From Parabacteroides massiliensis (GTDB taxonomy: Bacteria > Bacteroidota > Bacteroidia > Bacteroidales > Tannerellaceae): a stretch of DNA of 64,000 nt. The stretch lies in contig NZ_LT700191.1 of the NCBI RefSeq assembly GCF_900155425.1, positions 669,918 through 733,917 on the forward strand. Reading direction: 5' to 3'. The notes beneath the pieces were generated by a model. It did no database searches and was not told the DNA's origin. It saw only the letters and a program-made list of their open reading frames with translations. Each line of letters opens with the position of its first letter. Position 1 is the stretch's first letter. The translations under genes and the position numbers were made by a program. Of this stretch, positions 27,085-40,950 are shown piece by piece.

Positions 27085-27672
27085 TTAGAACAGGATGGCA
27101 GCCGTAATCGACCAACCCCGGTTCTTACCGTTTAATTCGAACTTTGACGCACTATAATCATCCGTCAAGCCGAGAGCATAATTGAAACCAACCTGCAAAT
27201 GTTTGATCAGTTCCACACCGCCGCCCAAATTCAAACCGGCATTAAAGCTTTTTGCCTTCAACTGCTCTCCGACCGATCCCGGAATATCCCAGAACTTATC
27301 ACCGCCCACACGGAAACCGACATACGGGCCGGCAGCCAGATATCCTTTGATAATAGGCAGGCCGAATTTCCATTTCAAATTAACCGGGACATCGATATAG
27401 TCATTCTTAATGTCTTTCTCGCTCTTCACGCCTATCCCTTTTTGAGAATACAGGATAGCCGCATCAAAACCGACTCCCATTACCGGGGCCATCACTTCCA
27501 CCATCGGACCGATGTTAAATCCGGTCACATTATCCTTTTCTACAATATCCTTGTTGAAATGAACAGACGAAATATTCAAACCGCCTTTTATACCGAACTT
27601 AATCTGGGATTTCGCAGGAACGGCTATCAATGCCATCACTGCCAATAATATAAGCCCTACAATCTTTTTCAT
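27085..27672 (-). CDS. Small outer-membrane beta-barrel protein (PorT-like / porin family)
   Basis: A 195-residue protein with a signal peptide (residues 1-22, ending PAKSQ) and alternating amphipathic beta-strands (FGIKGGLNISSVHF, FNIGPMVEVMAPV, FDAAILYSQKG, YIDVPVNLKWKFG, YLAAGPYVGFRVGG, NAGLNLGGGVEL, QVGFNYALGL, GWSITAAILF), which suggests an eight-stranded barrel of the OMP_b-brl_2 type common in Bacteroidetes. The specific role is unknown. It is the first gene downstream of the cobalamin riboswitch on this strand, but about 285 bases and two hairpins lie between, so B12 control is uncertain. Confidence 0.85.
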   Translation of the reverse strand: MKKIVGLILLAVMALIAVPAKSQIKFGIKGGLNISSVHFNKDIVEKDNVTGFNIGPMVEVMAPVMGVGFDAAILYSQKGIGVKSEKDIKNDYIDVPVNLKWKFGLPIIKGYLAAGPYVGFRVGGDKFWDIPGSVGEQLKAKSFNAGLNLGGGVELIKHLQVGFNYALGLTDDYSASKFELNGKNRGWSITAAILF

Positions 27673-27778
27673 ACTTTTCCTTTAATTAGTTAATACGAAT
27701 TACAAATAAACGCACTTTTCCATTAATAAACAAATATCACCGCCTAAGTGTTGCCAATGTTACCATCCGTAAAAGGAA

Positions 27779-27824
27779 AGCATGAACCGAAGGCGGAGCT
27801 CATCCCGCAAACAGATTCATGCCT
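27779..27824 (-). terminator. Hairpin between the riboswitch and the barrel gene
   Basis: GCATGAA (27780-27786) is complementary to TTCATGC (27816-27822), with an inner GCGG/CCGC stem. On the minus strand the stem is followed by TTTCCTTTT. It may act as a terminator for transcripts coming from the riboswitch. Confidence 0.5.
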
Positions 27825-27955
27825 CTTTTCCTAATTATTATGGCAAAATAATTAAAAACAAACAGATAGGCTACGGGAAACGGGAATAAAGAAAGGCAAA
27901 AACCTGCGGCTTTACTGTTCTCTTCCGGCCTTTCCTCGAAGCCGTCGAAAAAAAT

Positions 27956-28131
27956 ATGCGTTGCAGGTCTTCTGACTTACTTCCGGTATGAGCGCCTTCC
28001 CAACTTGCGTCAGTGGCATAAAAGAATTGCCCAATCCGTTTTTTGAAGCTTACAGCAGCGGGACTGTCCGGGATTTGCACCCGATTCCCTTTTAATCCTT
28101 TTCCGCAGATTGCGAAACAGGAACAATGCAT
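27956..28131 (-). ncRNA. Cobalamin riboswitch
   Basis: On the minus strand the conserved core is clear: GGGAATCGGGTGCAAATCCC, then GGACAGTCCCGCTGCTGTAA, then the loop GCCACTG, then GGGAAGGCGC and AAGTCAGAAGACCTGC. The ends can pair as P1 (ATGC with GCAT, GTT with AAC). A run of seven T follows the aptamer at once, and CGGCTT/AAGCCG plus five T (to about 27905) could form an expression-platform terminator. No B12 uptake gene follows. The gap 27673-28202 otherwise holds only hairpins and AT-rich sequence. Confidence 0.92.
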
Positions 28132-28135
28132 GGGA

Positions 28136-28143
28136 CAAATATA
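28136..28143 (-). promoter_or_regulatory. -7 promoter box of the riboswitch transcript
   Basis: TATATTTG on the minus strand, a full TAnnTTTG match. It places the transcript start at about 28130, right at the 5' end of the riboswitch P1 stem, so the RNA has its own promoter between the esterase stop and the aptamer. Confidence 0.6.
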
Positions 28144-36783: not shown

Positions 36784-38931
36784 TTATTCACCTAACAGTA
36801 TTTCCAGGATCTGGACAGCTGCTTTCGTTACAGATGTACCCGGACCGAAGATGGCGGCAACACCAGCTTTGTACAGGAAGTCATAGTCCTGTGCAGGGAT
36901 AACGCCTCCGGCGATCACGATAATATCGGGACGACCCAATTTCTTCAGTTCTTCGATAACCTGCGGAATCAAAGTCTTGTGTCCGGCGGCCAAAGAAGAA
37001 ACACCCATTACGTGAACGTCGTTCTCTACAGCCTGGCGGGCAGCTTCGGCCGGAGTCTGGAACAGGGGCCCCATATCCACATCGAAACCACAGTCTGCAT
37101 AACCTGTAGCCACAACTTTAGCACCACGGTCGTGCCCGTCCTGACCCATCTTAGCGATCATGATACGCGGCTGGCGACCCTCTTTCTTGGCAAACTCGGC
37201 AGTCAGCTCACAAGCCTTCTGGAAGTCTGCGTCTTTCTTCGTTTCTGATGAATACACGCCTGATATAGTTCTGATGATTGCTTTATAACGACCTACTACA
37301 ACTTCGCAAGCATCGGAGATTTCTCCCAGTGATGCACGCAAGCCGGCTGCTTTGACTGCCAGTTCGAGCAGGTTGCCTTTCTTCGTACGGACGCATTCCG
37401 TGATGTCGGCCAACGCTTTCTGCACGGCTTCTTCGTCACGGTTGGCACGCAGTTCTTTCAACAGTTCGATCTGCTCGTTACGAACGGCTGTATTGTCGAT
37501 TTCAAGGATATCGATCGGGTCTTCTTTCGGCAGGCGGTATTTGTTCACACCGACGATTGTCTGGACGCCAGAGTCGATACGAGCCTGCGTACGGGCAGCA
37601 GCCTCTTCGATACGCATCTTGGGCAGACCTGTTTCGATCGCTTTCGCCATACCGCCCATGCTTTCGATTTCCTGGATCAAAGCCCAGCCTTTATGAACGA
37701 GTTCGTTTGTCAGAGATTCCACATAGTAAGAACCGGCCCACGGGTCGATCTCCTTGCATATCTTCGTTTCTTCCTGGATATAAATCTGGGTGTTACGGGC
37801 GATACGTGCAGAGAAGTCTGTCGGCAAAGCAATGGCTTCGTCCAATGCGTTCGTATGCAGAGACTGTGTGTGGCCCAAAGCGGCAGCCATAGCTTCGATA
37901 CAAGTACGGCCTACGTTGTTGAACGGGTCCTGCTCGGTCAGTGACCAACCTGAAGTCTGGCAGTGAGTACGCAGAGCCAGAGATTTCGGATTCTTGGCAC
38001 CGAAGCTCTTCACGATCTTCGCCCACAACATACGTGCGGCACGCATCTTGGCGATTTCCATGAAGTGGTTCACTCCGATAGCCCAGAAGAATGACAGACG
38101 CGGAGCGAAAGCATCGATATCGATACCGGCGTTCACACCGGCACGAAGATATTCAAGGCCGTCGCAAAGCGTATAAGCCATTTCGATATCGGCTGTCGCA
38201 CCTGCTTCCTGCATGTGGTAACCGGAGATGGAGATGGAGTTGAACTTCGGCATCTTCTGGGAAGTATATTCGAAGATATCGGCGATGATACGCATGGAGA
38301 ATTCAGGCGGGTAGATATAAGTGTTACGTACCATGAACTCTTTCAGGATATCGTTCTGGATTGTTCCGGCCATCTCTTCCAATTTGGCACCCTGTTCCAA
38401 ACCTGCATTGATATAGAAAGCCAATACAGGAAGTACGGCACCGTTCATTGTCATGGAAACAGACATCTTGTTCAAAGGAATGCCATCGAACAAAACCTTC
38501 ATGTTCTCCAACGAACAGATAGAAACACCGGCTTTACCGACGTCACCGACCACACGTTCGTTGTCAGCATCGTAACCACGGTGTGTCGGAAGGTCGAAAG
38601 CGACAGACAGACCTTTCTGGCCGGAAGCCAGGTTACGGCGATAGAATGCGTTAGACTCTTCTGCTGTAGAGAAACCTGCATACTGGCGGATCGTCCAGGG
38701 GCGCATAGCGTACATGCCGCTATACGGGCCACGCAGATAAGGAGGCAGACCGGAAGCATAGTTCAAATGTTCCATCCCTTCCAGGTCTTCTTTTGTATAT
38801 ACGGGTTTCACCTCGATGTGCTCGGGTGTTTTCCAATTGGCCTCGATGCCATTGGCTTTTGCCCATTCGGCAGCGTTGGTTGCTGCAAAACCGGCATTCT
38901 TTATATCTATGTTTTTAAAATTTGGTCTCAT
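36784..38931 (-). CDS. mutB: Methylmalonyl-CoA mutase, large (catalytic) subunit
   Basis: About 715 residues. With mutA it interconverts succinyl-CoA and (R)-methylmalonyl-CoA using adenosylcobalamin, the step that leads to propionate in Bacteroidales. The N-terminal TIM barrel carries the substrate segment [21 protein letters not shown], and the C-terminal domain carries DGHDRGAKV, with H599 as the lower cobalt ligand, plus [10 protein letters not shown] and VIAGGVIP of the B12 fold. I choose 38931 ([10 protein letters not shown]) over an upstream ATG at 38970 that lies in the repeat-rich gap. Confidence 0.97.
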
Positions 38932-38937
38932 TTCTCT

Positions 38938-39019
38938 GATGATTTGAGATTCACCATTTATGATTTGCAATTTATGATTTACGGCAACGAACTGCCAATC
39001 ATAAATTATAAATCATAAA
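38938..39019. repeat. Inverted repeat built from TTTATGATT units between mutA and mutB
   Basis: The left arm has TTTATGATTTGCAATTTATGATTT and the right arm has ATAAATTATAAATCATAAATC-type units, around a GC-richer centre with GGCAACGAACTGCC. This is the same unit as in the gltX-waaA gap. It lies inside one operon, so it must be transcribed. Confidence 0.8.
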
Positions 39020-40885
39020 TCAATTAATTCCTAATTTTACGTTGAAAGCTTTCAATGTTTCAAGCACGTTGCTCTTTACATTTACATATTGGTCGATACC
39101 CACTGCTTTCAGGTCTTCCATACAAGCAGGCATACCGGCTACAACAAACTCAGCTCTTCCGGCCAAAGCCTTGTAAGCCGCAGGAGCCAATTCTGCATAT
39201 TCATCATCGCTTGAGCAAAGAACCACGATTTCAGCACCGGCTTCGACAGCTGCTTCCACACCCGCTTCAACCGTATCGAAACCTAAATTATCAATCACCT
39301 TATATCCTGCACAAGCAAAGAAGTTGCTTGAGAACTGAGAACGAGCCAGGCGCATAGCCAGGTTACCGATCGTCAGCATGAATACTTTCGGAGTCTTGCC
39401 GCTCTTTTCCGTTGCCAGGCGCAATGCTTCAAATTCCGAAGCGCCACGGGAGAAATCAAGCGCGGTGACAGTAGCTTCGCCACAATCGTGACCGCCGCCA
39501 CAGCAACAACCGCCGGCCTCGGTCTTGATCTTTTCGGCTGCCACTTCGTTGAAGTTCGGGAACTGGTTGGTTCCTAACAGGATTTCACGACGGGTAGCGA
39601 CTGCTTTCTTACGGGCTTCGTTGGAGGCGTTAACGGCTTTCTGGATTTCACCGGAAGCGACTTCCGCACCAAAACCGCCTTTATCTTCCACTTCAAGGAA
39701 CAACTTCCAAGCAACATCAGCCAAGGAATTCGTCAGAACCTCTACATAATAAGAACCGGCAGAAGGATCGACAACCTTATCCAAATGGCATTCTTCCTTC
39801 AACAGCAACTGCTGGTTGCGGGCAATACGCTCGGAGAAATCGTCCGGAGTCTGATAAGTCTTGTCGAACGGACGAACCGTGATCGAATCGACACCGGCAA
39901 GAGCAGCCGACATGGCTTCTGTCTGTGAACGCAGCAAGTTTACGTGAGCATCATAAACTGTCATGTTCCATTCCGAAGTCTGCGCATGGATATGCATCTT
40001 GCAAGCGCACTGGCAAGCCGGATTGTAAGCGGCAACGATTTCAGCCCACAACCAACGAGCGGCACGGAACTTGGCGATTTCCATGAAGTAGTTGGAACTG
40101 ATACCGAAATTGAATTTGATCTTCTTGGCAACTTCCGTAACGTCCAGGCCGGCTTCAGCCAGCTTAGCCAACAGTTCGTTACCCCAAGCCAATGCATACC
40201 CTAACTCCTGAGAGATATAGGCTCCTGCATTATTGAAGTAGAAGGCATTTACTGCCAACACTTTGTAACCCGGCAGAGCAGCACCCGCTTTGAGCACAGC
40301 GGCGGCAGCTTCCACCCAGTTTTCGTTTTCCTTACCTTTCACCAGAGGTTTCTTGAACGGGTCGTAGTTTACAGAACCTTTGCATTTTTCCAGGTCTGCG
40401 CCTTTGCCTTTGAAGTAGTCGGCAAGAATGCCGATCAACATTTCAGCCTTGCAATTGCAAGTGTCGAAATTCAGTTCCACACATTCAGGACAAATACCGT
40501 CAAGCAAGGCAGCAATGTTTTCTGCGTTTACGTCGCTTCCCTTAATGATGAAGCCAAGAGAGGTCACACCCTTATTCAGAATGTCAAGGGCTTTTTCATT
40601 AGCACCTTTGAAACAGGTGACTTCGATGTTCTGGCGCACCTTCCAATCGTTGTCCTTCTTTGTTCCGCGAACGTAAGGGAATTCACCGGGAAGAGACTCG
40701 GTTGTCTTCAATCCTTCGATGTCTTCTGCACGATAGAAAGGATTTACATTAAATCCTTCGCCTGTCTTCCAAACAAGCTTTTTCTCAAACGGAACCCCTT
40801 TCAGGTCGGCCGTAATCTTCGCCATCCACTCTTCAGTAGACACAGGGGCAAATTCTGAGAAAAGTTTTTCTTTTAATTCTGCCAT
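39020..40885 (-). CDS. mutA: Methylmalonyl-CoA mutase, small subunit
   Basis: A 621-residue partner of mutB. It keeps the TIM barrel and the B12-like fold but lacks the DxHxxG cobalt ligand, as expected for the non-catalytic subunit. An unusual Cys/Gly-rich stretch, GGCCCGGGHDCG, lies near residues 486-497 in the linker between the two domains. It is the first gene of the pair and has an excellent promoter. About 90 bases, filled by a repeat, separate it from mutB. Confidence 0.96.
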   Translation of the reverse strand: MAELKEKLFSEFAPVSTEEWMAKITADLKGVPFEKKLVWKTGEGFNVNPFYRAEDIEGLKTTESLPGEFPYVRGTKKDNDWKVRQNIEVTCFKGANEKALDILNKGVTSLGFIIKGSDVNAENIAALLDGICPECVELNFDTCNCKAEMLIGILADYFKGKGADLEKCKGSVNYDPFKKPLVKGKENENWVEAAAAVLKAGAALPGYKVLAVNAFYFNNAGAYISQELGYALAWGNELLAKLAEAGLDVTEVAKKIKFNFGISSNYFMEIAKFRAARWLWAEIVAAYNPACQCACKMHIHAQTSEWNMTVYDAHVNLLRSQTEAMSAALAGVDSITVRPFDKTYQTPDDFSERIARNQQLLLKEECHLDKVVDPSAGSYYVEVLTNSLADVAWKLFLEVEDKGGFGAEVASGEIQKAVNASNEARKKAVATRREILLGTNQFPNFNEVAAEKIKTEAGGCCCGGGHDCGEATVTALDFSRGASEFEALRLATEKSGKTPKVFMLTIGNLAMRLARSQFSSNFFACAGYKVIDNLGFDTVEAGVEAAVEAGAEIVVLCSSDDEYAELAPAAYKALAGRAEFVVAGMPACMEDLKAVGIDQYVNVKSNVLETLKAFNVKLGIN

Positions 40886-40950
40886 AATATTAGTTGTTTT
40901 AATACTGGTATTAGTAATTGTTCAATAGTATATTGTTCAATAACAGTAGG

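Follow-up and report, generated by a model that had tools for sequence, protein, structure and literature searches.

EutX and Rli55 are free-standing sRNAs that contain a riboswitch and hold the ANTAR regulator EutV, the ANTAR protein binding to paired hexaloop hairpins. In Listeria, SreA and SreB are terminated SAM riboswitch fragments that act in trans. A further RNA, AspocR, was reportedly described by Mellin in 2013. This antisense RNA of Listeria monocytogenes is regulated by a cobalamin riboswitch and, according to the accessible sections of two papers, acts as a repressor that confines expression of B12-requiring functions to conditions with B12 (PMC9943018, PMC11575231). In those sections, the authors of the second paper favour activation by the cofactor itself. 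Small RNAs and TPP riboswitches have been reported in Bacteroides thetaiotaomicron, the accessible main text of that paper not containing the word 'cobalamin' (PMC7366714). In Tannerella and Porphyromonas, cobalamin riboswitches occur upstream of genes, as given in the available part of the source (PMC7160235). Another paper, in its available part, treats B12 and propionate without involving riboswitches (PMC10881866). The literature covered (titles and abstracts, with all bioRxiv preprints and the majority of subscription papers outside the scope) contained no cobalamin-riboswitch sRNA in Bacteroidota and no sRNA control of mutA.

The locus described here lies in a 64-kb stretch of DNA, the whole of which was analysed and is referred to as the window. 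We predict that it probably encodes a trans-acting sRNA of ~370 nt that is controlled by a B12 riboswitch and represses mutAB when B12 is scarce. Like EutX and Rli55, the predicted RNA is free-standing, with a cobalamin aptamer first and a regulatory module behind it. It differs in that the loops of its two 3' hairpins, SL1 and SL2, are not ANTAR-like: on inspection of the consensus fold, they have 7 and 8 bases (UUGCCAU and GAUGAGC[UG]) rather than forming hexaloops, and pairing with mRNA is indicated. As with SreA and SreB, a riboswitch-derived RNA would pair with a distant mRNA; in the Listeria RNAs a ligand-made aptamer fragment acts, whereas the predicted RNA would act through a dedicated 3' module, in the absence of ligand.

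The likeness to AspocR, as that RNA appears in the accessible sections of its descriptions, is that a cobalamin riboswitch gives rise not to an mRNA but to a regulatory RNA and that a B12-requiring function would be repressed without B12. According to the same sections, AspocR lies opposite its target, pocR. By contrast, the proposed target here is a locus of its own, not opposite the RNA but 13 kb from it on the same strand; the complementarity is short, and the product of the target is itself the B12 enzyme. By analogy, the predicted logic of a B12-controlled repressor RNA is that of AspocR, and the architecture differs: trans-acting, distant, base-pairing, and in Bacteroidota. Similarly, GibS of B. 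thetaiotaomicron is a trans-acting, base-pairing sRNA of the Bacteroidales with a conserved seed; its targets are different, and riboswitch control is not described for it in the accessible part of the source (PMC7366714). The first-pass annotation of the window had considered a short B12-responsive RNA acting in trans in the manner of eut and pocR control. The trans-acting part of that reading is supported, through base pairing with the mutA start, but the eut/pocR manner is not.

The Rfam check proposed in that annotation bore out its cobalamin aptamer. Specifically, cmscan matched RF00174 over the entire model at 28143-27945 on the minus strand (100.9 bits, E 4.6e-24; gathering score 31.5). 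By aptamer sequence and structure, the feature is an RF00174 cobalamin riboswitch; cobalamin binding and switching are predicted. The 5' part of the locus comprises:

28136..28143, minus strand: TATATTTG box, a Bacteroidota-type -7 promoter box immediately 5' of the aptamer, assigned from sequence

27945..28143, minus strand: cobalamin riboswitch aptamer (RF00174), assigned by cmscan

The motif TAnnTTTG, which we take to be the Bacteroidota -7 promoter consensus, stands ahead of the aptamer core in 29/30 homologous RNAs. The annotated promoter box at the 5' side of the aptamer (28143-28136), T7 run (27954-27948) and second hairpin (27824-27779) are all present. The annotated CGGCTT/AAGCCG hairpin can pair, but comparison favours CGGCTT-CGAGGAA-AGGCCG (27944-27926). 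Since the 64 kb contain a single cobalamin match above the gathering score, mutAB (36784-40885) and the cob genes have no aptamer of their own, as had been annotated.

The genome to which the window belongs (G000, 5.0 Mb, Parabacteroides-like) has nine cobalamin aptamers. Eight of them lie ~34-156 bases ahead of genes, which include TonB-receptor-like, lipoprotein-like and CbiK-like genes (by eye), a biotin carboxylase (above the cut-off for accC) and the gene of a small protein with an AspT/YidE-type transporter behind it. The window's aptamer is the exception: the next gene, encoding a beta-barrel protein, is distant, starting 273 bases past the end of the Rfam match. The riboswitches ahead of the biotin carboxylase and of the small protein with the AspT/YidE-type transporter (L007 and L008; G000:C2:572991-573195 and 581362-581570) suggest a wider B12 regulon, perhaps reaching the succinate/propionate branch.

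The anatomy of the RNA block was derived from alignments of 23 homologues and 30 extracted RNAs. In the homologues, the parts occur in the order promoter box, aptamer, CGAGG-loop hairpin, unconserved spacer, SL1, and SL2 with a U-rich tail. Behind the aptamer, the window has:

27926..27944, minus strand: P13-type hairpin with a constant CGAGG loop; the stem varies, the loop does not

27884..27913, minus strand: candidate early terminator, a weak hairpin and U-rich tract in the otherwise variable spacer

27831..27854, minus strand: SL1, a frozen, near-invariant hairpin, TAATTATTTTGCCATAATAATTAG, the proposed seed for the mutA start codon

27779..27824, minus strand: SL2, a covarying hairpin with a constant GGGATGAGC[TG]CCG tip and a U-rich tail

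The CGAGG-loop hairpin, presumably P13, was considered as a special L13 loop peculiar to the sRNA. This was rejected, as similar CGAGG hairpins lie behind aptamers that precede coding genes in other Bacteroidales; it is therefore an ordinary P13-type element. In the spacer, a hairpin with a U-rich stretch was present in 23/30 RNAs (the extraction pattern missed 5/35 RNA loci), above the level of dinucleotide shuffles (Fisher-combined p 7.5e-6 over 23 loci that are not fully independent, 7 near-copies having been dropped). The element is weak in the window itself (p 0.12), and the spacers overall were no more stable than shuffles (mean z 0.10). The spacer hairpin and U tract are a candidate B12-controlled terminator ahead of SL1.

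The key part of the block is SL1, which was absent from the first-pass annotation. Its stem letters are 0.986 constant, versus 0.883 in the SL2 stems; judged from the alignments, this letter-level freezing is beyond what structure alone requires. The hairpin is nearly self-complementary. Its palindrome has a single genomic occurrence when up to 3 mismatches are allowed, and a DNA operator was rejected on this ground. A small ORF was likewise rejected: open frames through the aptamer region vary in frame and length among relatives, and the ATG of the SL2 stem is altered in some species, while in others it falls out of register. SL2 is terminator-like and likely marks the end of the RNA. The covariation in SL1 and SL2 was reached by 0/500 shuffles, which ignore kinship, and is mostly an SL2 signal. 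A covariance model of the SL1+SL2 tail, R1, scores 105.3 bits at 27770-27856.

In the proposed mechanism, the 5' half of the RNA would serve as the cobalamin riboswitch, and the 3' half would combine the seed hairpin SL1 with the terminator-like SL2. Without B12, the RNA would be made in full, and SL1 would pair across the mutA start codon and block translation of methylmalonyl-CoA mutase. With B12, the riboswitch would end transcription in the spacer, or otherwise disarm the RNA, and mutAB would be expressed. We infer this direction of switching from the way this riboswitch class usually behaves, as an off-switch, and from the target's logic. In these gut bacteria, the step between succinate and propionate depends on methylmalonyl-CoA mutase, which requires B12; under the proposed mechanism, the cell would halt synthesis of the enzyme when the vitamin runs out. 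The target region comprises:

39020..40885, minus strand: mutA, methylmalonyl-CoA mutase small subunit (TIGR00642, 740 bits, above cut-off)

36784..38970, minus strand: mutB, methylmalonyl-CoA mutase large subunit, ORF as listed (NF006944, 1294 bits, above cut-off)

40876..40893, minus strand: proposed target, mutA mRNA from -8 to +10 around the AUG (A at 40885), 18 base pairs with SL1

By inspection, mutB likely starts at MRPNF, slightly inside the listed ORF. Through its loop and arms, SL1 is complementary to an AUGGCA start; the mutA start region that it matches lies 13 kb away. Pairing with the mutA start was among the checks proposed in the first-pass annotation. The SL1-mutA duplex has -18.5 kcal/mol, the lowest of the 48 listed window ORFs (next, -12.8); mutA also won in a 41-ORF subset. 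Among 307 mechanical ORFs sampled from 400 kb of the genome, the mean was -8.3 (sd 2.5), the lowest value -16.9, and none reached -17. The genome has 8 exact ATTATGGCARAA sites, and the mutA duplex is the strongest among those at ORF starts; at one site away from an ORF start (L236), SL1 pairs at -17.9. Randomised SL1 attained -18.5 in 10, 0 and 2 of 2000 trials under three null models. When each genome's SL1 was paired with its own mutA start, the energy ranged from -16.4 to -21.2 in 29/29 genomes, mostly at mRNA -8 to +10. These represent 29 of the 34 carriers; no mutA start was available for G021, G456 and G433, and SL1 was not extracted from G439 and G444.

SL1 provides the conserved, mRNA-complementary seed expected of a trans-encoded base-pairing sRNA. 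Net co-folding of the tail with the whole leader, with folding costs counted, was weaker, ranking mutA only 15th of 265 genes. The mutA starts of Parabacteroides lacking the sRNA could still pair with the window's SL1, at -15.0 to -18.8. Simple seed searches in the window and genus were uninformative, and a ranking by full-tail duplexes was set aside because it was dominated by length. Pairing of the SL2 tip with mutB was rejected: at the start chosen by eye it gave -8.7, with 174/264 sampled genes as good or better, an earlier value of -18.3 reflecting a misplaced start. None of 20 mutA loci in genomes lacking the sRNA carried a cobalamin aptamer. In another Bacteroidales family (G062, L309 1501-1898), a cobalamin aptamer is followed by a terminator-like hairpin and a convergent ORF, an apparent orphan. 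Its best mutA pairing, -14.3, was reached by 54/200 shuffles and so provides no evidence of a parallel case.

Because the protein dictates the AUGGCAGAA part of the site, there is no room for covariation over most of the duplex, and the informative part is the leader. Eight leader bases, CTAATATT at mutA -8 to -1, face the 3' arm of SL1. Within Parabacteroides, CTAATATT was kept in 20/21 genomes with the sRNA versus 5/14 without it (p 0.0002, Fisher test, which ignores kinship). A control leader element outside the duplex, CTAATACCA, was kept in 17/21 versus 11/14 (p 1.0). The counts leave out the carrier G021 and, among genomes lacking the sRNA, G029, in which mutA had no match, and G031, whose mutA start was not covered. 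With the lacking genomes limited to those at least 90% complete, the contrast was 20/21 versus 4/8 (p 0.013); outside Parabacteroides it was not significant (4/10, 1/10). The mutA leader (40886-40925, minus strand) also has a second conserved element, ACTAATACCAGTATTA-like, which Parabacteroides bearing the sRNA and those lacking it retain to a similar extent.

On a MutA tree of 36 rows, from which G003 and G024 are missing, presence of the RNA changes 8 times, at least 7 of these being forced by starred branches. Five sister comparisons agree, with members lacking the RNA having lost the leader site and members bearing it retaining the site. Given as RNA present/RNA absent, these are G035/G032; G000-G012-G014-G020/G006-G018-G019-G025; G007-G022-G030/G016; G036/G011; and G446/G241. 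In three of these comparisons, the genome without the RNA (G016, G011 and G241) has a completeness of 99%. In the other two, the lacking genomes are 76-88% complete, which makes absence of the RNA there less sure. For G018, absence rests on a DNA search, as this genome was not listed in the R1 search. Five genomes keep the site without the RNA (G008, G010, G015, G026 and G033), and the clade G010-G015-G026-G027-G033 has no RNA, with four of its five members retaining the site. As read from these comparisons, conservation of the leader site follows presence of the RNA.

A free-standing B12-controlled RNA might instead have another mode of action, targeting different mRNAs or using SL1 and SL2 to hold an RNA-binding protein, the mutA match being incidental. 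Such a role would account for an SL2 tip that is nearly invariant with no target found for it, for the freezing of SL1 in both arms, for the modest rank of mutA by net co-folding, and for G433, which retains the RNA with no mutA match. In contrast, SL1-mutA is the lowest-energy duplex among both the 48 window ORFs and the 307 sampled genes, and most lineages that lack the RNA show drift at the mutA leader site. The gene for the other B12 enzyme tested, metH, gave no strong duplex with SL1 (-5.2 to -9.7 across candidate starts). On balance, we regard action by such other routes as unlikely. At the RNA locus of G433 (L270), SL1 is slightly shifted and the SL2 tip intact.

The predicted trans-acting RNA also has to be set against an ordinary cis-acting riboswitch whose long leader would control the downstream gene by read-through:

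27085..27672, minus strand: outer-membrane beta-barrel gene (PF13568, above cut-off), judged not to be the target

In favour of this reading, block and barrel adjoin on one strand in many carriers. Among named organisms, the barrel gene has its closest relatives in Parabacteroides and farther ones in Massilibacteroides, Tannerella and others. The R1 tail was found at 14/33 named barrel loci in addition to the window, including those of P. acidifaciens, P. goldsteinii, P. gordonii, P. distasonis, P. chinchillae, P. bouchesdurhonensis and P. faecis. When 28250-27600 was compared with relatives by Blast, two conserved blocks emerged, one at ~28171-27770, ending at SL2, and one comprising the barrel upstream region from ~27754. 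The first has 89-94% identity in four near genomes, and the match stops at SL2 in three.

The two blocks are separable. In P. acidifaciens, an ATPase-like gene (by eye) lies between the RNA and the barrel; in G020, a peptidase-like gene and a SusC/SusD-like cluster (by eye) intervene; and in G014, the barrel occupies a different chromosomal position, with the RNA block intact. Identity of the RNA block in these three is 89.5, 91.2 and 93.8%, respectively. In another genus (G452), RNA and barrel are ~1.9 kb apart, with a minus-strand ORF between them, and both SL1 and the tip of SL2 are intact. None of 12 scanned barrel loci held a cobalamin aptamer; at the L011 barrel locus, the block lies 7 kb away, beyond the locus (the same block as at L075). 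A strict two-box, promoter-like pattern precedes the barrel in 14/24 regions, including those of G014 and P. acidifaciens, in both of which the RNA lies apart from the barrel.

With these synteny breaks, and with the terminator-like SL2 between riboswitch and barrel, we consider cis control of the barrel improbable. The distant B12 switch on the barrel gene that the first-pass annotation had entertained is accordingly disfavoured: a separate conserved region precedes the barrel, and block and barrel each occur without the other. As judged by comparison, the ~370-nt block (28143-27770) is a conserved unit of its own in Tannerellaceae, independent of its neighbours. The comparative features of a separate transcription unit encoding an sRNA in trans are present, namely promoter box, terminator and neighbour independence. 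ATPase-like genes (by eye) stand beside the block in two species, once after it and once before it (L074 6538-8097 and L075 4731-6278), hinting at an insertion hotspot.

The decayed btuB locus of the first-pass annotation, a reading to which the TonB-receptor-like genes (by eye) behind cobalamin riboswitches elsewhere in G000 lend some sense, has a negligible probability, as the 3' half is strongly constrained and the block is followed by the barrel or other genes at 15 relatives' loci (4 + 9 + 2), where no flanking ORF reads as btuB (G020 has a SusC/SusD-like pair further down).

At E ≤ 0.001, R1 matched 33/118 genomes of the family, 21 in Parabacteroides and 12 in five other genera; one extra Parabacteroides (G024), identified by DNA search, brings the carriers to 34. 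All 15 of the loci tested with Rfam had a cobalamin aptamer ahead of the SL1+SL2 tail. Across the order, and with stricter filters, R1 matched 3/393 sampled genomes, all Parabacteroides. One locus (L143 in G429, at ~7122 and ~9366) has a tandem pair of sRNA blocks in a repeated segment, either a biological duplication or an assembly effect. In six genomes, the sRNA lies up to ~3 kb downstream of mutB (G460:C117, G452:C90, G446:C56, G004:C1, G005:C77 and G023:C150), directly after it in G460; gene and regulator may be ancestral neighbours.

For the Tannerellaceae, a B12-riboswitch sRNA acting at a distance would provide a concrete, testable answer, with proximity being the wrong test. As the RNA was not found in other families among the 393 sampled genomes of the order, Xylanibacter is not accounted for. 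We lean slightly towards a fuller picture in which a metabolite-sensing sRNA is contained in one molecule: B12 would directly control synthesis of an RNA that pairs in trans with the mRNA of a B12-requiring enzyme encoded at a distance, causing a vitamin-sparing shift from propionate to succinate in gut Parabacteroides, with further targets reached through the SL2 tip. If the prediction is true, what looks like an 'orphan' riboswitch can turn out to be an sRNA, with a target that can be read from sequence.
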